From NCBI GenBank assembly GCA_031082125.1, contig JAVHLM010000022.1:1-64000 (forward strand): a DNA stretch of 64,000 bases, written 5' to 3'. Below, piece after piece: positions 38,037 through 52,916 of this stretch. The translations under genes and the position numbers were made by a program. Source of the DNA: Candidatus Eremiobacterota bacterium (GTDB taxonomy: Bacteria; Vulcanimicrobiota; CADAWZ01; Ess09-12). The stretch's first letter is position 1. The number at the start of each line of letters is the position of its first letter. A model generated the notes under the pieces. The model searched no databases and was not told the DNA's origin. It saw only the letters and a list, made by a program, of their open reading frames with translations.

Positions 38037-38090
38037 TTCACGGAGCCTTCACTGAGTTTTCATACTCCCTTCACAGAACTGCCCTATAAT
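38037..38090 (+). promoter_or_regulatory. four 11-bp TTCAC repeats plus -10, before the 36-residue peptide gene
   Basis: TTCACGGAGCC (38037), TTCACTGAGTT (38048), TTCATACTCCC (38059) and TTCACAGAACT (38070) are four tandem units at exact 11-base spacing. TATAAT begins at 38085, 15 bases after the start of the last unit, and there is no separate -35. This is the layout of activators of the PhoB/PhoP branch of OmpR-type regulators. Identical geometry occurs at 41144-41197 and 49474-49527. Confidence 0.75.
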
Positions 38091-38123
38091 GATATTCAGA
38101 ACAGGGCAAGGAAGGTGAATAAA

Positions 38124-38234
38124 ATGATTACCAGAGTGTTTGAAGGCAATGGAATTCCTCTGATCACAGGCTGCTCGCCCAACTGCATCTTCTCGCTTGT
38201 GGGCCTGACGATGGGGGCATATGGCGGCCGATAG
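38124..38234 (+). CDS. 36-residue peptide, candidate modified-peptide precursor
   Basis: ATG 38124 is preceded by AAGGAAGGTG (38108-38117) and by the four-repeat promoter whose -10 is at 38085, so it has both transcription and translation signals. The peptide starts MITRVFEGNGIPLITG and continues with a CSPNC pair, a hydrophobic stretch and a GAYGGR end. It is too small for an enzyme. A Cys pair plus a regulatory box shared with the ABC exporter and SPASM radical SAM genes suggests a substrate of that pair. It ends two bases from the convergent PQQ-propeller gene. It resembles no family I recognise. Confidence 0.5.
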   Translation: MITRVFEGNGIPLITGCSPNCIFSLVGLTMGAYGGR

Positions 38235-40415: not shown

Positions 40416-41126
40416 TTGTCAGGATTGCTGATCCTCATTGCCGAAGACGACAGGACCCACAACACCGTCCTCAAGGATTACCTGGAAAAGATAGGTTACA
40501 GGACGGCCTCTGCCTTTGACGGGAAAGAGGCGCTGGAGCTCTTTTCAAGGCTGAAGCCCGATTTCGTCCTTCTGGATGTCATGATGCCCCATATGGACGG
40601 TATCGAGGTGTGCCGGACCTTGAGGAAAACCTCAGATACGCCCATCCTGATGCTCACTGCGCTCTCCGAAGAGACCGACAAGCTCATAGGTCTTGAAATC
40701 GGCGCCGACGACTACCTCACCAAGCCTTTCAGCCTCAAGGAAGTGGCGGCACGCATAAAGGCAATCATGCGCAGGTTCCGCTCCGGAGGAGAGGCTGGCA
40801 GCAACAAGGCAAAGATTGTCTCGGGCGACATGCTCATTGACACGGAAGCCTGCTCGGTGATACTCAGGGGCCTGGAATTGAAGCTTACGGCTACGGAGTT
40901 CAAGATACTTGAAGTCTTTGCGAGGCACCCCGGGAAGGTGCTGAGCCGCTCGCATATCGCCGAGCTCGCCTATGGCGACACTTTCGAAGGCTTTGACCGG
41001 ACAATTGACGCCCATATCAAAAATATAAGGCATAAATGCTCCTCCGTGGTGCCCGAGCACGACTTTATCGAGACCTCAAGAGGACTGGGGTACAAGTTCA
41101 TCGCCCAGGGCGAGCAGGGCAGATAA
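40416..41126 (+). CDS. orphan OmpR/PhoB-family response regulator
   Basis: A TTG start at 40416 with AAAGGAGAT seven bases upstream gives 236 residues. The receiver domain has the acidic pocket EDD (10-12), phospho-acceptor D54 in VLLDVMMPHMDG, the LTAL threonine and the KPF lysine. The C-terminal winged helix contains LTATEFKILEVFARHPGKVLSRSHIAELAYG and RTIDAHIKNIRHK..GLGYKF, the PhoB/PhoP subtype that binds tandem 11-base repeats. No histidine kinase gene is in the window. Three promoters with such repeats lie within 10 kb, one directly downstream, so these are its likely targets. Confidence 0.92.
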   Translation: MSGLLILIAEDDRTHNTVLKDYLEKIGYRTASAFDGKEALELFSRLKPDFVLLDVMMPHMDGIEVCRTLRKTSDTPILMLTALSEETDKLIGLEIGADDYLTKPFSLKEVAARIKAIMRRFRSGGEAGSNKAKIVSGDMLIDTEACSVILRGLELKLTATEFKILEVFARHPGKVLSRSHIAELAYGDTFEGFDRTIDAHIKNIRHKCSSVVPEHDFIETSRGLGYKFIAQGEQGR

Positions 41127-41143: not shown

Positions 41144-41197
41144 TTCGCCGTTTTTTCACTGTATATTCATTATCCCTTCACATAAAGCCGATATACT
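41144..41197 (+). promoter_or_regulatory. four 11-bp TTC-type repeats plus -10, before the ABC exporter gene
   Basis: TTCGCCGTTTT (41144, degenerate), TTCACTGTATA (41155), TTCATTATCCC (41166) and TTCACATAAAG (41177) repeat at exact 11-base intervals, and TATACT begins at 41192, again 15 bases after the last unit begins. Transcription would start near 41204, ahead of the ABC-radical SAM operon and just behind the response regulator gene. Confidence 0.75.
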
Positions 41198-41249: not shown

Positions 41250-43025
41250 ATGGAAAGATGGGAAGAGGCAATGAAGTCAGTTAAAGAGTTCCTGAAACAG
41301 TTCTACGAGTTCTCTCCGAAAAAGATTTTCCTCTACATGGCCTGCACTCTCTCGAGCGCCATCCTGGAAGGTATCTCGCTCCTTCTGCTCGTGCCCTTCC
41401 TCAGCGCCGCAGGGATGGGTCCCTCCGCCGCGGCGGGAAAGCCCGCCTTTGACGAAAAGCTTCTCGTGGTGATACTGCTTCTCTTTCTCCTTATCACCAT
41501 AATAGAGGAATTTATCAAGCGGAGCACCTCCATCCTGATGATCGCCCTCAAGGCGGGATTTTACAGGGCGCTGAGCGACCGCTTCTACGAGGCCTTTGCC
41601 TGCTCGCGGTGGCAGGTAATCCTGAAACAGAGGAGATCCGACATCGCCAATGCCCTCACCAACGAGCTCAAGACCATCGACATAGGGACCCAGATATCGC
41701 TCCAGACTTTCAGCACCATTCCCTCGGTGCTCATCCAGATAGTGGTCGCTTTTGTCTTATCCTGGCAGGTGACTCTCGCAGCCATCGCCTGCGGCATTCT
41801 TTTCTTCCATGTCATGAAGCCGGTGAACAGAAAGCTCGGTGACATAGCTGAATCTCTTAACAACGTGCTCAGGGACAGCCTTTCCGACGTGAATGAGCAC
41901 CTGGGCGGCATCAAGGAGATAAAAGGGTACAGCGCGGAAAAGGTCCACTCAGAGCGCTATCAGAAAAAGACCCGCAGGACGGAAGAGCAATACGTGCAGT
42001 TCATCAGGACCTTCTCCACTTCCAATTTCATCTACAATACCGCAACAATCATCATGCTGGCCATCTTCATATATGGCGCCGTGGCCCTCTTTCACGAGAG
42101 CGTCGTGAAGCTCATCGTCCTCTCAATAGTATTCTTCAGGATATGGCCCCTCTTTGCCACCTACCAGACATCCCTCCAGTTTTTCATCATGATGATCCCG
42201 GCATGGGAGAGCTTCTCGAACAGGATGAGGGAGCTTGAGGAAGCCCGGGAGGAATCCATGGAAAAGCCCGGCACAGAGCCGATGGTATTACAGCAGGGCA
42301 TAGAAGTGAAGGATGTCACCTTCTCCTATAATCAGGAAGAAATACCTACCCTCCGGCACGTGAGCCTCTCCATCCCCGCCCACTCCTTTGTGGCCGTCAC
42401 GGGGCTCTCCGGCTCGGGAAAGAGCACCTTTGTCGATATACTGCTGGGCCTGCTTGAGCCCTCGTCAGGCGAGGTCACCATTGACGGGGAGACGCTGAAT
42501 CCCGCGATGGCTCACCTCTGGCGAAGCGCCATAGGCTTCGTGCCGCAGGACACCTTTCTTTTCAACGGCACCGTGAGGGAGAACCTGCTGTGGTCCCGGC
42601 CTTCCGCCACTGACGAAGAGATCATGGAGGCACTGAAGCTTGCCGCCGCCGATGATTTCGTCAAGGCCCTTCCCCAGAGCCTTGACACCGAATGCGGCGA
42701 CAGGGGCACGCGCTTTTCGGGAGGCGAGCGCCAGAGGATCGCCCTGGCGAGGGCCCTCCTCAGGAGCCCGTCGCTTCTCGTGCTGGATGAGGCCACGAGC
42801 TCCCTGGACACGGAAAATGAAAAGAGGATCATTGACGCCATAAAAAGCCTTCACGGGAAGATGACCATCCTGATAGTGGCCCACCGCCTCTCAACCATAA
42901 GGGAGGCTGACGAGATCGTGCTTTTCGAGAACGGCTCGGCGATAGAAAAAGGAACCTTCGGGATGCTGATGGAGCGGGAAAACGGGAGATTCCATGATCT
43001 GGCCCGTGAATATGCGATGAAATAA
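41250..43025 (+). CDS. ABC transporter, fused membrane and ATPase domains (exporter type)
   Basis: This 591-residue half-transporter has six helices in residues about 20-310 and a nucleotide-binding domain with Walker A (GLSGSGKSTF), signature FSGGERQRIALARALL, Walker B LLVLDEATSSLD and the switch His in VAHRLSTIREAD. There is no N-terminal C39 peptidase, so any leader must be cut elsewhere. It is the first gene after the 41144 repeat promoter and lies 14 bases before the SPASM radical SAM gene. Export of a modified peptide is the best inference; lipid or drug export is possible. Start codon uncertain: ATG 41250 or 41271. Confidence 0.88.
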   Translation: MERWEEAMKSVKEFLKQFYEFSPKKIFLYMACTLSSAILEGISLLLLVPFLSAAGMGPSAAAGKPAFDEKLLVVILLLFLLITIIEEFIKRSTSILMIALKAGFYRALSDRFYEAFACSRWQVILKQRRSDIANALTNELKTIDIGTQISLQTFSTIPSVLIQIVVAFVLSWQVTLAAIACGILFFHVMKPVNRKLGDIAESLNNVLRDSLSDVNEHLGGIKEIKGYSAEKVHSERYQKKTRRTEEQYVQFIRTFSTSNFIYNTATIIMLAIFIYGAVALFHESVVKLIVLSIVFFRIWPLFATYQTSLQFFIMMIPAWESFSNRMRELEEAREESMEKPGTEPMVLQQGIEVKDVTFSYNQEEIPTLRHVSLSIPAHSFVAVTGLSGSGKSTFVDILLGLLEPSSGEVTIDGETLNPAMAHLWRSAIGFVPQDTFLFNGTVRENLLWSRPSATDEEIMEALKLAAADDFVKALPQSLDTECGDRGTRFSGGERQRIALARALLRSPSLLVLDEATSSLDTENEKRIIDAIKSLHGKMTILIVAHRLSTIREADEIVLFENGSAIEKGTFGMLMERENGRFHDLAREYAMK

Positions 43026-43039
43026 AAGGAGGCGAGAGC

Positions 43040-44455
43040 ATGCTTCTGACATTCCAGTCATTCACCAACAATCCCTATGTCTATGATCCCCGGTCCAACG
43101 AGATCTTCAGGGTTGACGAGCATGTCTTCGAAGAGCTCACCACAGCCGGCGGGAACATCTCGGAAATCCGTGATGAAAAAGTGAGACAGGGCTTCCGGGA
43201 CGCCGGTGTGAGCGACGAGGTGCTGCCGCTCGAGGACCATGATCTGTTCAAGAAAGAGATAGATGCCATGCAGATCGGCATGCGGAAGCTCATTATCGGC
43301 CTTGCCCACACCTGCAACCTCCGCTGCAAGTACTGCATATACTCGGGAAACTATGCCGACGAGCGATCCCACGAGGGAAAACAGATGACAGAAGAGACAG
43401 CAGACAGGCTCATCGACGTCTTCTATGTCAAAAGAGGCGATGATTACCCGAAAATGTGCATCTTTTACGGCGGTGAGCCCTTCACCAACTTCCCCATCCT
43501 GAAGAGGATAGTGGAAAAAATCACGGCCCTCAGGGATGACGTGGGCTTCAGCGCCACGACAAACGGCCTGATGCTGAAAAACGAGGAGATCCTGGATTTC
43601 ATCAAAAGCTATGACTTTGTCATCAACATAAGCTTTGACGGCCCCTCGCAGGAAGCCATGCGCATCGACCAGAACGGCCGGGGAACCTTTAATGACCTCA
43701 TGGGCCTCATAGAGCACATAGCCGAAAAATACCCTGATTTTTACAGGGAAAAAGTGGGCTTCAACGTGACGGTGACGCCGGCATCGGACCTCCACGAGAC
43801 CGTGGAGTTCTTCAACACGAATCCCCTCTTCAGTGGCAAGACGCTGAACGTCATCAGGCACTATGACCCCGACAACGTCTTCTGCAGGAAGTACGATCTG
43901 ATGGACCATGAAAAGACGCTCCGCGATGAATTCGACAAGCTCAGGAGAGAGTACCCCGCGGTCTTCAAGGAGCACAGGCCCTTCCACGACGGCTGCTACC
44001 TCTCTCCCCTCGCGCGCCTCGACCAGAGGCCCATGGGCGACGTGACAAGACTCCCCCTCAACTCATGCTGCTACCCCGGCCTCAATGCCGTATTCGTGGA
44101 TATAGACGGCACCTGCTCGCCCTGCGAGCGCACAGAGCACATCAAGCTCGGGAGCATCTATGACGACGAGCCCGTTAACCTGAAAACCGCCGAGGAGCTC
44201 GTGAAGAAATACCAGGAAATTGCAGGCAGGCACTGCCCCCGGTGCTGGGCCGCACGCCTCTGCGCCAAGTGCTTCTCCCACGTGAGGAGAGGCACTGTCA
44301 CCGAGGAGAACTTTGTAGCCAACTGTGACGACTTCAGGGAATCCTTCCGAAAGTCGATGGAGCTCTTCACGACCATCAAGGAAATTGACGAGAATGCCTT
44401 TGCCGACGTGAAGGTGATCACGGAGCTCCCGGTGAAGGAGAAGCAGAAGGCATAG
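43040..44455 (+). CDS. radical SAM/SPASM protein, probable peptide maturase
   Basis: AGGAGG precedes the ATG. Residues 1-80 (YVYDPRSNEIFRVDEHVFEEL) look like the precursor-recognition start seen in peptide maturases. The radical SAM core has C92-x3-C96-x2-C99 (HTCNLRCKYC), FYGGEPFTN and TNGLML. The C-terminal third holds SPASM cysteines: NSCCYPG, GTCSPCERTEHIKLGS, then HCPRCWAARLCAKCF and ANCDDF, enough for two auxiliary [4Fe-4S] clusters. Such enzymes install thioether, C-C or other crosslinks in ribosomal peptides. It is co-transcribed with the ABC exporter. The substrate may be the peptide at 38124. Confidence 0.85.
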   Translation: MLLTFQSFTNNPYVYDPRSNEIFRVDEHVFEELTTAGGNISEIRDEKVRQGFRDAGVSDEVLPLEDHDLFKKEIDAMQIGMRKLIIGLAHTCNLRCKYCIYSGNYADERSHEGKQMTEETADRLIDVFYVKRGDDYPKMCIFYGGEPFTNFPILKRIVEKITALRDDVGFSATTNGLMLKNEEILDFIKSYDFVINISFDGPSQEAMRIDQNGRGTFNDLMGLIEHIAEKYPDFYREKVGFNVTVTPASDLHETVEFFNTNPLFSGKTLNVIRHYDPDNVFCRKYDLMDHEKTLRDEFDKLRREYPAVFKEHRPFHDGCYLSPLARLDQRPMGDVTRLPLNSCCYPGLNAVFVDIDGTCSPCERTEHIKLGSIYDDEPVNLKTAEELVKKYQEIAGRHCPRCWAARLCAKCFSHVRRGTVTEENFVANCDDFRESFRKSMELFTTIKEIDENAFADVKVITELPVKEKQKA

Positions 44456-44464
44456 GGAGCAAAT

Positions 44465-44956
44465 ATGCTGCTTGACTATAAAAGCATTTTCACGGAATTG
44501 AACCGGCTCGCCATCGACTACGTGGTAGTCGGAGGAATGGCCGTCAACTTTCACGGCATTCCAAGGATGACCTACGACATAGATCTCATGATCCTGCTGG
44601 AAAAGGACAATATTGAAAAGACCGTGAGGCTGCTCATACAATGGGGCTACAGGGTAAGGATTCCCGTTGATCCCATGGAGCTGGCGGATGAGGAGAAGAG
44701 GAATTCCTGGAGATCGGAAAAGAATATGAAAGCGATGAATTTTTATTCTGATACGCTGGCAATCGGAGAAATAGACATACTCTTTGATTCACCGGTTTCC
44801 TATGAGGTTATGAAAGCCCATGCCGCGATCATGGAAATCGGAAAAGAGAAGATACCCTTTGCCTCCATCCAGGATCTTATCGCAATGAAAGAGCATGCGG
44901 GGCGAAGGCAGGACCTCAGTGATATTGAGCATCTGCGCCTGATTATGGAGAGATGA
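44465..44956 (+). CDS. nucleotidyltransferase-fold protein (DUF6036/AbiEii-like)
   Basis: At 163 residues, it has the minimal nucleotidyltransferase core: YVVVGGMAVNFHGIPRMTYDIDLMI supplies the GG..A/H.. loop and the D-x-D pair, and IGEIDILFD the third carboxylate. Similar stand-alone proteins pair with a small partner and behave like toxin-antitoxin or phage-defence modules. Here a 59-residue frame overlaps its stop. It begins ten bases after the radical SAM gene and may be in its operon, but a functional link is not obvious. Confidence 0.75.
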   Translation: MLLDYKSIFTELNRLAIDYVVVGGMAVNFHGIPRMTYDIDLMILLEKDNIEKTVRLLIQWGYRVRIPVDPMELADEEKRNSWRSEKNMKAMNFYSDTLAIGEIDILFDSPVSYEVMKAHAAIMEIGKEKIPFASIQDLIAMKEHAGRRQDLSDIEHLRLIMER

Positions 44957-49473: not shown

Positions 49474-49527
49474 TTCACGGCTCCTTCACGGAACCTTCAT
49501 CATTCCTTCACAAGGCCGTGGTATCAT
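49474..49527 (+). promoter_or_regulatory. four 11-bp TTCA repeats plus -10, driving a short transcript towards hxsC
   Basis: TTCACGGCTCC (49474), TTCACGGAACC (49485), TTCATCATTCC (49496) and TTCACAAGGCC (49507) are exact 11-base tandem units. TATCAT begins at 49522, 15 bases after the last unit, as in the two other copies. It points into the 3' end of the oppositely transcribed hxsC. Confidence 0.75.
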
Positions 49528-49533
49528 GAAGCT

Positions 49534-49616
49534 GTCGAGGAGAAGGGGGTGGTGAGAAGAGGAGCACTGAGAACGAAGAGCGGTCACAGGAAAATGGAGG
49601 TTCCCCCCTCCTTTTT
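49534..49616 (+). ncRNA. candidate short regulatory RNA antisense to the hxsC 3' end
   Basis: The predicted start near 49534 and the terminator ending at 49616 bound about 83 bases. A GTG frame with AGGAG upstream exists near 49550 but would be cut by the terminator, so a peptide is unlikely. The last 33 bases are complementary to the end of the hxsC coding sequence including its stop codon (49584). It might tune hxsC message stability, linking the response-regulator circuit to the hxs operon. Entirely predicted. Confidence 0.4.
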
Positions 49617-50759
49617 CTGCTTTTCGGGAATGGTATCTCCTCCTTTGAAAGGCTTTATCTGTGAAGGCTTCCTGACGGAGGTTCCGAAAAATCCTCCGCA
49701 TGAGGCCTTTTGCGAGCACTCCCCGCATTCAGGGAGGAACATCTTCTTCCAGTCCGAGATGCTGTCACGGGCGAAGGGACGGACCTTTTCGGAAATGAGG
49801 CAGAGGGGGAGATTGTAAAGGGAGACCCTCATCATGCGCTGATTCAAAAAGACTACGGCCTTTTCGAGCGCGCCGCGGTAGTCTGAAGGCTCAACCCATA
49901 CCTCATCGAGATTGGCACAGGCCACACCGGAAGTCTCCATTGCCATGAAAGCTATGTGGACGGCGAAAGGGAAGTTCCAGAAGATGAAATGGGCCAGGTC
50001 GGCGAGGCGCTCTGCATTCTGCCGCACGATAACCACCCGGATCTCGATGGGGCGGCCGTACCTCACCAGGTTGTGGATGCCGGCGACAGTCTCGCGAAAT
50101 GATCCCTTTGCACCGGTGATTGCATCGTGCTCGACATCATTGTCGGCAAAGACGGGGATACAGAAAACAAGTCCCCGCGGGGCGCTTTCAGCAACCCTCG
50201 TGGCCACCTGGAAGTCAGCAAGCCTCCTGCCGTTCGTGAGAAGCTGCACCGGTGACGAGGGAAAGCGCTCCCTCAAAAGGTCCAGAACCTCGACAAGGCC
50301 GTCGAGCACAAGGGTGGGCTCGCCGCCAGTGATGCCGAAGGAGGGAGGCTCCGGGACCGCGAGAAGCCGGAGCATTCTTTTTGCCGTTTCATCGTGATGG
50401 CAGGGATGGGCCTCGGGGGTCTGGGGGCACATGATGCAGCGGGAATTGCAGTAATCGGTGAGATAGAGAGGGTTCTGGCGGGAGCCGGTATCCCAGACAA
50501 GGCTGATACGCCCGTCGGGGTCCACCTTTACGATATCCCCTTCCCTCAGTCGGGTCAGAAAACCGCCGGGGACACTGCAAAGCCCCGTCATCTTTTCATC
50601 TCCCGGCGACGAAGTGATGCAGAAGTCCTCCCTTCCCTGGCTTTCGCCGCATACAAGCGCCGTATCGGCCCTCTCCTTCCGGTGAGCTTTCGGGGTGGTG
50701 GTGATCCGGCGCACCTGTGATGCATCGATGCGGCGGGGAATTCCTTTACTTTCCTTCAT
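49584..50759 (-). CDS. hxsC: His-Xaa-Ser system radical SAM maturase HxsC
   Basis: Starting at MKESKGIPRR (50759), inside the last 14 bases of hxsB, gives 391 residues. The SAM-cluster motif is C104-x3-C108-x2-C111 (TDYCNSRCIMCPQTP), followed by FGITGGEPTLVLDGLVEVL and LLTNGRRLADF. The C-terminal CGECSQKASCGGFF supplies further cysteines. HxsC is one of two paired radical SAM enzymes predicted to act on the His-Xaa-Ser repeat peptide HxsA. Its final codons (EGGTS) encode the stem of a terminator used on the other strand. The long upstream extension of this frame lies antisense-like within hxsB and is not used. Confidence 0.85.
   Translation of the reverse strand: MKESKGIPRRIDASQVRRITTTPKAHRKERADTALVCGESQGREDFCITSSPGDEKMTGLCSVPGGFLTRLREGDIVKVDPDGRISLVWDTGSRQNPLYLTDYCNSRCIMCPQTPEAHPCHHDETAKRMLRLLAVPEPPSFGITGGEPTLVLDGLVEVLDLLRERFPSSPVQLLTNGRRLADFQVATRVAESAPRGLVFCIPVFADNDVEHDAITGAKGSFRETVAGIHNLVRYGRPIEIRVVIVRQNAERLADLAHFIFWNFPFAVHIAFMAMETSGVACANLDEVWVEPSDYRGALEKAVVFLNQRMMRVSLYNLPLCLISEKVRPFARDSISDWKKMFLPECGECSQKASCGGFFGTSVRKPSQIKPFKGGDTIPEKQKKEGGTSIFL
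49596..49616 (+). terminator. intrinsic terminator, possibly bidirectional
   Basis: GGAGG (49596-49600) pairs with CCTCC (49607-49611) across a six-base loop, followed by five T residues (49612-49616). On the minus strand the same stem is followed by ATTTT, so it may also weakly stop hxs transcripts, although it lies just inside hxsC. Confidence 0.55.
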
Positions 50760-52215
50760 CGGGCACGCACCTGAAGCCTTCCCTCTGAATCCATGACCAG
50801 AACACCTCCATGACCCTCTCATCATTCTCGATGAGCTTTCCGAAGAGGTAATCCAGGATCCCCATATTCTTCGTGCAGAACTCGCTCCCCGGCCTTCTTC
50901 CCCTGATATCGCCGCGCTCCACGTAGTAGCGGACTGGATCGGCGCCGCAGTAAGGCTGATACACACACTGGGCGCACATGGGGAGCATCTCGACGCAGCT
51001 TTCACGGACAAGCTCGCGGAGCAGCGGTCCCCCGAAGATCTCGCCGTGGCTCTGGTGAAGCACATTCCCCATAAGGAAGCGCTTGTCGCCCATGCGGGCG
51101 AGCATCCGCCCCTCGTCGGCGGGATAGACCTCGCCGTTGTAGTCATAGACGGCGCCACTTATCCCTGCGCCCGCCGGCGACTGGAGGTCCACGAAGCCCG
51201 TCGAGAAGGGAGTGAGGATCCGCAGGAGCAGGAACTCCGCATAGAGCTCTGAAAAGTAGGTCCCCTTCATGTTCAGCTCGATGAGGTACTCCAGCGCATC
51301 CCTGTAAGCCTCGACGAACTCCCGGGCCGGATAGCCCAGGTGGTCCCGGTTTTTTACGGCAAACCCGTAAGGGTTGAGGCCTCTCAGGAATATGCTCCGG
51401 AATCCCATGCCAAGGTAATGATCTATGATCTCCCTGAGGCGGGTAATGTTATCTCTCGTGATGGTGAGAAGGGCGCTGCAGGACTGGGGATTAATGCTCC
51501 TGCGGTAAAAAGCGAGATTCCTGACGAAACGGTCATAGCTGCTGCCGTTGTCGCGGCTCCTGCGGTGGAGATCATGGAGCTCCTTCGGACCGTCGAGCGA
51601 CGTGGAAAACGCCATCCTGTGCTCCCGGCAGAACTTCGCCCACTTCTCTTCGGCATGGAGCAGGTTCGAGCACACCACGAAATCCAGATACTTCTTCTTT
51701 TTCCTGTTGAGCTTCTCAGCCTTTTTCACGATAAGCTCAATAATGGGCCAGTTGAGCGTGGGCTCGCCGCCCTGGAACTCTATTTTCACTCCCGGAGAGG
51801 GTGAATCAAAAATGACCTCGACCACTTTCTCTGCCACCTCAGGGGTCATATCAAAGCCCTTCGAGGCGGGATCGGTGCTTGATGCCTGGCAATAATCGCA
51901 CATGCAGCTGCAGCGCGCAGTGATTACTACCATGTGAAGAGCGGTGAAATCGCGCATGTAAGCTCTTTTTGAGCGCATCTTCACCGCCATGAGCTCAATG
52001 GCGAGATCGAGATCGTCATCGGCGATAAAATGCCTGCCCTTGAGGGGAAAATAGAGGCTCCCGAGGTCTCCGGGCCTGCGGGCTTCCAGAAGCTGCGAGA
52101 ACTGCCCCTCATCAATGAGGGTGAACTCTCCGTTCAGGTTCACAAGAAGGACCCGGTCGCCGCCGAGCTTCTTGAAATGAAAGGGAAGAAGAGTGAGGGT
52201 GCCGGCTGCGCTCAT
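50746..52215 (-). CDS. hxsB: His-Xaa-Ser system radical SAM maturase HxsB
   Basis: A 489-residue radical SAM protein. An N-terminal segment (LLPFHFKKLGGDRVLLVNLNGEFTLIDEGQF) is the HxsB-type precursor-binding-like start. The cluster motif is C102-x3-C106-x2-C109 (ARCSCMCDYCQASS), then EFQGGEPTLNWPI and the SPASM-like end CVEMLPMCAQCVYQPYCGADPVRYY with EFCTKNMG. It overlaps hxsD by 4 bases and hxsC by 14, so all are co-translated. The chemistry on HxsA is not established; peptide crosslinking or oxidation is expected by analogy. Confidence 0.88.
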   Translation of the reverse strand: MSAAGTLTLLPFHFKKLGGDRVLLVNLNGEFTLIDEGQFSQLLEARRPGDLGSLYFPLKGRHFIADDDLDLAIELMAVKMRSKRAYMRDFTALHMVVITARCSCMCDYCQASSTDPASKGFDMTPEVAEKVVEVIFDSPSPGVKIEFQGGEPTLNWPIIELIVKKAEKLNRKKKKYLDFVVCSNLLHAEEKWAKFCREHRMAFSTSLDGPKELHDLHRRSRDNGSSYDRFVRNLAFYRRSINPQSCSALLTITRDNITRLREIIDHYLGMGFRSIFLRGLNPYGFAVKNRDHLGYPAREFVEAYRDALEYLIELNMKGTYFSELYAEFLLLRILTPFSTGFVDLQSPAGAGISGAVYDYNGEVYPADEGRMLARMGDKRFLMGNVLHQSHGEIFGGPLLRELVRESCVEMLPMCAQCVYQPYCGADPVRYYVERGDIRGRRPGSEFCTKNMGILDYLFGKLIENDERVMEVFWSWIQREGFRCVPDEGK

Positions 52216-52547
52216 TGCTTCTTCTCTTCAACTTCGATGGGGAGAAATGCGTGGCGGTAAAGTATCTCCCGCAGCGCCCCCGTGCGCTTCATCAGGTCAA
52301 GGCGCACCTGCTCTTCAATGATGTCGTTGAGAAGCTCACCGGCGGCTTTCTCGCCCTCTCTGCCATTATTGCCGCCCTTGCATTGAAGGAGCACCGCGTA
52401 AGACTGTTCTCCACAGGGCTCCACTTTCACATAGAAGAGCTCATTAAGCTTCTGTGCGGCCGTAAAAACTGCTTCGCGCTCATAGAGCAGAGATGAGACT
52501 TCAACGCGGTAAAGATCGGGAGAGAGCTTTTCCACTATGTGTTCCAT
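52212..52547 (-). CDS. hxsD: His-Xaa-Ser system protein HxsD
   Basis: A 111-residue protein. It opens VEVSSLLYEREAVFTAAQKLNELFYVKVEP, then CGEQSYAVLLQCK, and ends with ELLNDIIEEQVRLDLMKRTGALREILYRHAF. That last part corresponds to the LLNDYxLRE hallmark from which HxsD was named. HxsD is small, has no catalytic motif, and may bridge precursor and maturases. The ATG has GGAGG upstream. It lies between hxsA (51 bases) and hxsB (4-base overlap), the standard order. Confidence 0.82.
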   Translation of the reverse strand: MEHIVEKLSPDLYRVEVSSLLYEREAVFTAAQKLNELFYVKVEPCGEQSYAVLLQCKGGNNGREGEKAAGELLNDIIEEQVRLDLMKRTGALREILYRHAFLPIEVEEKKQ

Positions 52548-52598
52548 AGGTCCTCCAAAGGCCCCTGCCCCCCGGAGAGGGGCAGGGGCTCTGTGCCG

Positions 52599-52916
52599 TT
52601 ACCAGCCGCTCCAGTGAGAGCCATGAGAGCCATGGCCTCCGCCGGACCAGTGATCGCCGGAGTAATGATTCCCATGGGAAAAGTGGTTCCAATGAAGGGG
52701 AGAGATTTTGCCATTGGAAGCCTTTTCTCCATCGACAGTGAGGGTATAGTCACTGACGCTGTGCTGCAGGTACACAGGGCTCGAGGGATCTACCTTCTGC
52801 TTGACTGGCTCTTTCTTCTCATCGGGCATGGCCTTGGCCTGGCTTGTGCCGACGAGGGAGGCGAGCCACCCGAGAAGCATCAGGGAGCCTCCCAGGTACT
52901 TCAGAAACTTGGACAT
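52599..52916 (-). CDS. hxsA: His-Xaa-Ser repeat peptide HxsA (modified-peptide precursor)
   Basis: This 105-residue precursor has an export signal (MSKFLKYLGGSLMLLGWLASLVGTSQAKA) and a Lys/Glu/Pro linker. From residue 75 it has a His/Gly/Ser/Trp tail with six His-x-Ser units: HFS (78), HYS (84), HWS (89), HGS (95), HGS (98), HWS (101), ending SGW. This matches the repeat that defines HxsA. The tail is the probable site of modification by HxsB/HxsC, and the mature product should lie outside the inner membrane. It follows the MORN gene by 39 bases; a strong ribosome site (AAGGAGG) supports high expression. Confidence 0.88.
   Translation of the reverse strand: MSKFLKYLGGSLMLLGWLASLVGTSQAKAMPDEKKEPVKQKVDPSSPVYLQHSVSDYTLTVDGEKASNGKISPLHWNHFSHGNHYSGDHWSGGGHGSHGSHWSGW

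Follow-up and report, generated by a model that had tools for sequence, protein, structure and literature searches.

Seven dispersed small-peptide genes share a four-repeat promoter with an ABC exporter–SPASM operon in a Candidatus Eremiobacterota genome

Does a lone 36-codon frame encode a genuine peptide, and does it belong with the ABC exporter and radical SAM/SPASM genes that lie 3–5 kb away? This question is raised by a 64,000-nucleotide stretch of a Candidatus Eremiobacterota genome (contig JAVHLM010000022.1, positions 1 to 64,000; hereafter the window). The frame encodes MITRVFEGNGIPLITGCSPNCIFSLVGLTMGAYGGR followed by a TAG stop and stands single, between a carboxylesterase gene that diverges from it and a PQQ-repeat protein gene that converges on it. 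The initial annotation had proposed it as the precursor of a RiPP system. The frame is a real peptide gene, one of seven dispersed relatives, and its leader pattern, its promoter box and the silent bias of its leader codons all exceed chance. The features discussed are collected in Table 1.

Table 1. Features of the window around the peptide gene, the exporter–maturase operon and the Hxs cassette
Feature	Position	Strand	Basis
Four TTCAY direct repeats, 11-bp period, predicted OmpR-family-type operator of peptide gene	38037..38074	+	pattern search
-10 hexamer TATAAT, exactly 10 nt past last repeat	38085..38090	+	sequence
Ribosome binding site (aaggaaggt)	38109..38117	+	sequence
Candidate precursor peptide gene, 36 residues, one of seven in genome	38124..38234	+	translation, family searches, codon pattern
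Conserved leader, residues 1-10 (MITRVFEGNG)	38124..38153	+	family comparison
Variable core, residues 11-36, with Cys17 and Cys21	38154..38231	+	family comparison
OmpR/PhoB-type response regulator, candidate box reader	40416..41126	+	domain models
Four-repeat box, 1 mismatch, before exporter–maturase operon	41144..41181	+	pattern search
-10 hexamer TATACT, same 10-nt spacing, exporter–maturase operon	41192..41197	+	sequence
ABC exporter (ABC_membrane + ABC_tran)	41250..43025	+	domain models
Radical SAM/SPASM enzyme, proposed maturase	43040..44455	+	domain models, conserved Cys
AbiEii-like nucleotidyltransferase-fold protein, 9 bp behind maturase gene, same apparent operon	44465..44956	+	domain model
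HxsB/HxsC	49584-52215	-	both above NCBIfam cut-offs
Short protein, HxsD by position	52212-52547	-	position
Repeat peptide with HXS-like tail	52599-52916	-	sequence

A peptide family with a constrained leader and a variable core

Relatives were sought in the whole source genome (7,431,043 bases, or 7.43 Mb, in 69 contigs). With the window peptide as query, three more short frames that begin with MIT[RK]VF were retrieved, and a profile of these four added a fifth member (MITRMYGGNG...); the promoter pattern described below then led to a sixth and a seventh member, whose leaders are of the MIQ/VIQ kind (group B, the other five being group A). Five members were found by peptide sequence alone and two by promoter pattern, and all seven have both features; since two were found via the box, the independent count of leader-found genes carrying it is five of five. 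A seven-peptide profile recovered just these seven from the genome (E 5.5e-12 to 1.7e-16; next match E 1.57), and the leader DNA pattern occurred at four genome sites, against none for its reversed version. One weak match to the peptide (L004) was rejected, as it is embedded in a long coding frame and is absent from the box sites.

At 32–36 residues, the peptides have in common a leader of the MI[TQ]xVFxG type at the N-terminus, two Cys within residues 16–21 and a hydrophobic tail that varies. In every member one Cys stands at position 16 or 17 and another at 19–21, followed by a tail of 12–15 residues; a third Cys, at position 12, occurs in the C41 member. The C-terminal half of the window peptide had been described as Gly-rich, and some Gly is present, but the enrichment is mild: of the 15 residues that follow the second Cys, 4 are Gly. 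None of the seven matched an NCBIfam model even at E 10 or a Pfam model below E 0.05, and no Nif11-type precursor leader was found in them at these thresholds.

Comparison within group A separates the leader from the remainder of the peptide. Over leader codons 2–10, pS is 0.58 and pN 0.18 in the peptide frame, against pS/pN values of 0.23/0.29 and 0.43/0.27 for the same region in the shifted frames, so that the silent bias is confined to the peptide frame. Identity by codon position is 0.91/0.78/0.49 in the leader and 0.28/0.32/0.32 beyond residue 10 in an ungapped comparison, where nothing except the cysteines is conserved. In group A, then, the leader is constrained and the core varies. The group B pair is alike over its entire length (pS 0.45, pN 0.20). 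A short gene, a conserved leader and a variable core, with translation indicated by the codon pattern, are what is looked for in a RiPP precursor. The proposal of a candidate precursor is thereby retained on its leader/core layout and shared box, while the notion of a single precursor gives way to seven dispersed ones.

Several peptide genes lie close to tRNA genes. Both group B genes are convergent to a tRNA-Tyr gene within about 60 bp (L140:4001-4082, L141:3403-3487), and one group A gene is near tRNA-Trp (L144:3916-3988); this proximity perhaps reflects joint duplication or placement by integration. Additionally, a peroxiredoxin gene about 200 bp from one group B gene (L141:3815-4609) carries an in-frame TGA at the expected catalytic Cys, FTFV-C-PTE being the peroxiredoxin motif around that residue, and it likely encodes a selenoprotein.

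Beyond this genome, the seven-peptide profile gave no credible match in any other of 149 phylum genomes; the best (E 0.009) covered model positions 12–34, not the leader. The leader pattern occurred in 36 stretches of genome_contigs, two of which (L114, L123) are small two-Cys frames, by eye lacking a ribosome site; the other 34 were rejected because the frame reaches at least 56 residues, is very short or has fewer than two Cys. None of its four stretches in viral_contigs fitted. For the 43040 protein, genome_contigs and viral_contigs gave no confirmed relatives in scans with six short patterns, which can miss diverged orthologues. Its only other match in the 149 phylum genomes (G009, 28% identity) was not taken as an orthologue, since the adjoining peptide differs, being of the six-Cys SCIFF type. 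With no confirmed relative of peptide or enzyme from these scans, the finding rests on one genome. A literature search found no description of the leader or the system, which is weak evidence of absence.

A shared four-repeat promoter and one SPASM operon

The peptide gene had been credited with a repeat-type promoter and a strong ribosome site, and both are present: TTCAY repeats, a TATAAT hexamer and AAGGAAGGT. A three-repeat pattern (TTCAY x3, 11-bp period, up to 1 mismatch) has 52 matches in the genome against 4 for the reversed pattern. With four repeats there are 19 matches at 18 sites, none for the reversed control and two in 27 other genomes searched. In 14 of these 18 cases the last repeat is followed by a TANNNT that begins at a distance of exactly 10 nt (binomial with p=1/64, P about 1.5e-22). 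These sites precede the seven peptide genes, the ABC/SPASM operon, four genes with secreted or lipoprotein-like products (C1:60k, a lipoprotein with a C10 peptidase domain; C30; C33; C34) and two places with no clear peptide behind the promoter (C17 and window 49474). No -10 stands at the fixed spacing behind the boxes at C1:148k, C5, C16 and C24, which were left out of the regulon. The claim that the peptide gene and the exporter/SPASM operon 3–5 kb off have a box in common is borne out by the second copy listed in Table 1. A sigma-70 consensus scan missed the peptide promoter, as expected if the repeats replace the -35 element. Judged from its sequence, the box has the geometry of an OmpR/PhoB-type activator site, and the 40416 response regulator is the obvious candidate for binding it.

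The two box promoters without a clear peptide have their own surroundings. In the window, a perfect four-repeat box, followed by TATCAT at the expected distance (49474-49527, forward strand), points antisense toward the 3' end of hxsC, and its transcript might be an antisense RNA linking the peptide and Hxs systems. At C17:49918 (L136:2919-3000), a perfect box promoter lies directly behind a tRNA-Met/Glu/Val cluster; its ribosome site, GGGAGGCGATTACAATG, is similar to the one before the C13 peptide gene and opens a two-codon frame only. This site is possibly a decayed member of the family.

The 43040 protein scores 30.1 bits against TIGR04085 (cut-off 27). In 11 sequences, C92, C96 and C99 (CxxxCxxC) are invariant, as are C344, C362, C399, C402, C408 and C429 in the SPASM region. 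The closest PDB chain by sequence is 5wgg_A (E 2.3e-20), which we take to be CteB, a SCIFF maturase. The best NCBIfam match is the CcpM-type model TIGR04068, near full length (residues 9–450) at 224.5 bits, below its curated cut-off of 500 bits; the protein is nearest to RiPP maturases, yet under every curated cut-off among the 25 models listed. Its AlphaFold model has a mean pLDDT of 58.8 and begins with two strands and three helices, mostly at pLDDT <50, a fold only suggested to fit an RRE. The genome is rich in radical SAM enzymes, with 31 SPASM-domain matches (28 above the curated cut-off). None of these but the 43040 gene is found within 10 kb of a four-repeat box; the chance expectation for a SPASM match within 3 kb downstream of a box is about 0.11. 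The window peptide is linked to this enzyme by the shared box and a distance of 5 kb.

A domain search found no C39 peptidase domain in the 41250 exporter, so leader removal would need another protease; speculatively, the box-driven C10-family peptidase is a candidate. Around the other six peptides, a chosen part of the frames, 20 neighbouring proteins, was scanned with Pfam, and neither a RiPP-type enzyme nor a LanM-type synthetase was found among them. Their domains were ankyrin, carboxypeptidase, peroxiredoxin, HigB, kinase, cyclophilin, NUDIX, MetK, HD, HNH and similar, and some had none. Any maturation would thus likely take place in trans.

A proposed trans-acting system and its rivals

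Joining the observed gene family, leader/core pattern, promoter and operon, we lean toward a reading in which at least seven dispersed RiPP precursors are activated through a regulator-bound box, modified in trans by a SPASM enzyme and exported by an ABC protein. The precursors share a short MI[TQ]xVFxG... leader, and their variable cores keep a Cys pair. An OmpR/PhoB-type response regulator, probably 40416, would activate the seven genes and the exporter–maturase operon via the four TTCAY repeats. The SPASM enzyme 43040 would bind the leader in trans and modify the core, the Cys pair most likely being turned into thioethers. Export of the product, which may be active, would then fall to the ABC protein 41250. 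Several observations count against this reading. Another of the many SPASM matches in the genome could be the acting enzyme; secreted and lipoprotein genes likewise stand behind the box, which makes co-regulation no special property of the peptides; and the exporter has no C39 domain, nor do the group A leaders have a classical double-Gly site.

One rival that we consider unlikely but deserving of attention is that the peptides are co-regulated secreted signals or toxins not matured by 43040, either unmodified with the Cys pair as a disulfide or processed by another SPASM enzyme, the box marking a mere common regulon. The regulon does hold the C10-family peptidase lipoprotein and other secreted proteins, and the 31 SPASM matches offer other enzymes. 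However, 43040 is the sole SPASM gene near a box, 5 kb from one precursor, and a conserved leader joined to an unconserved core is typical of enzyme-recognised precursors. It is improbable that the genes are scattered duplicates of small, membrane-active, RNA-silenced type I toxin-like peptides. They are short, mildly hydrophobic and dispersed, and three lie near tRNA genes, but the conserved part is the N-terminus rather than a transmembrane helix, the best 15-residue hydropathy across the seven is just 0.95–2.27, and each gene has an elaborate activator-type promoter.

The shared segment could also be read as a promoter and 5' RNA of a regulatory RNA family, with the peptide incidental; the promoter and ribosome-site region common to all seven and the two box promoters without a clear peptide speak for this. 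We regard it as very improbable, because the silent bias occurs in one frame, in the group A leader and along the full length of the group B pair, and because the upstream regions have, by eye, only the box, the -10 and the ribosome site in common. Finally, an apparently complete His-Xaa-Ser cassette lies on the reverse strand of the window (49584-52916), with HxsB and HxsC above curated cut-offs, and the peptides might be its substrates. This is the least credible reading: the cassette has its own His-Xaa-Ser repeat peptide, on the strand opposite to the 38124 gene, and the 38124 peptide has no HXS repeats.

Relation to known systems and implications

The favoured reading, trans modification of dispersed precursors, most resembles the prochlorosins, for which the cited source describes one ProcM lanthipeptide synthetase and precursors scattered over the genome (PMC10783134). 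Both arrangements have many singly scattered precursors, a conserved leader, a variable core and presumably one trans-acting enzyme. In contrast to the prochlorosins, the proposed enzyme here is a radical SAM/SPASM protein and not a LanM, all genes share one activator-type promoter, and the leaders, of about 10 residues, are not of the Nif11 type. Nif11 leaders are much longer than this. Compared with CcpM-type Cys-rich peptide maturases, the 43040 enzyme is alike over nearly its full length, yet its score is far below the cut-off and the seven peptides match no model of the collection. Among SCIFF maturases and other sactipeptide and ranthipeptide SPASM enzymes, 5wgg is the solved structure nearest in sequence. 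In SCIFF systems the precursors carry six Cys and are encoded adjacent to their enzyme, whereas those found here have two or three and are dispersed.

The box recalls PHO boxes, which are 11-nt direct repeats with a GTTCACC core in Streptomyces (PMC4415409). Both are 11-bp TTCAC-core repeats of the kind read by OmpR/PhoB-type regulators; here, unlike in PHO boxes, four repeats stand at a fixed 10-nt distance from the -10. Despite this likeness, a Pho regulon identity was not supported: the PstC model found nothing in this genome, while the control search was positive in 14 of 14 genomes. The box is therefore not called a phosphate regulon.

Taken together, it is quite possible, at somewhat under an even chance, that this is a radical SAM counterpart of the prochlorosins, with one SPASM enzyme acting on at least seven Cys-pair cores and a lineage-specific four-repeat promoter under one regulator for all precursors, maturase and exporter. 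RiPP mining usually seeks precursors beside enzymes. Cluster-based tools would miss these peptides, because six of the seven are without a RiPP-type enzyme among the scanned neighbours and are tied to the system by leader and promoter only. If the pairing holds, one radical SAM enzyme would come with a natural library of seven cores, and the promoter would provide a signature with which further precursors may be found.
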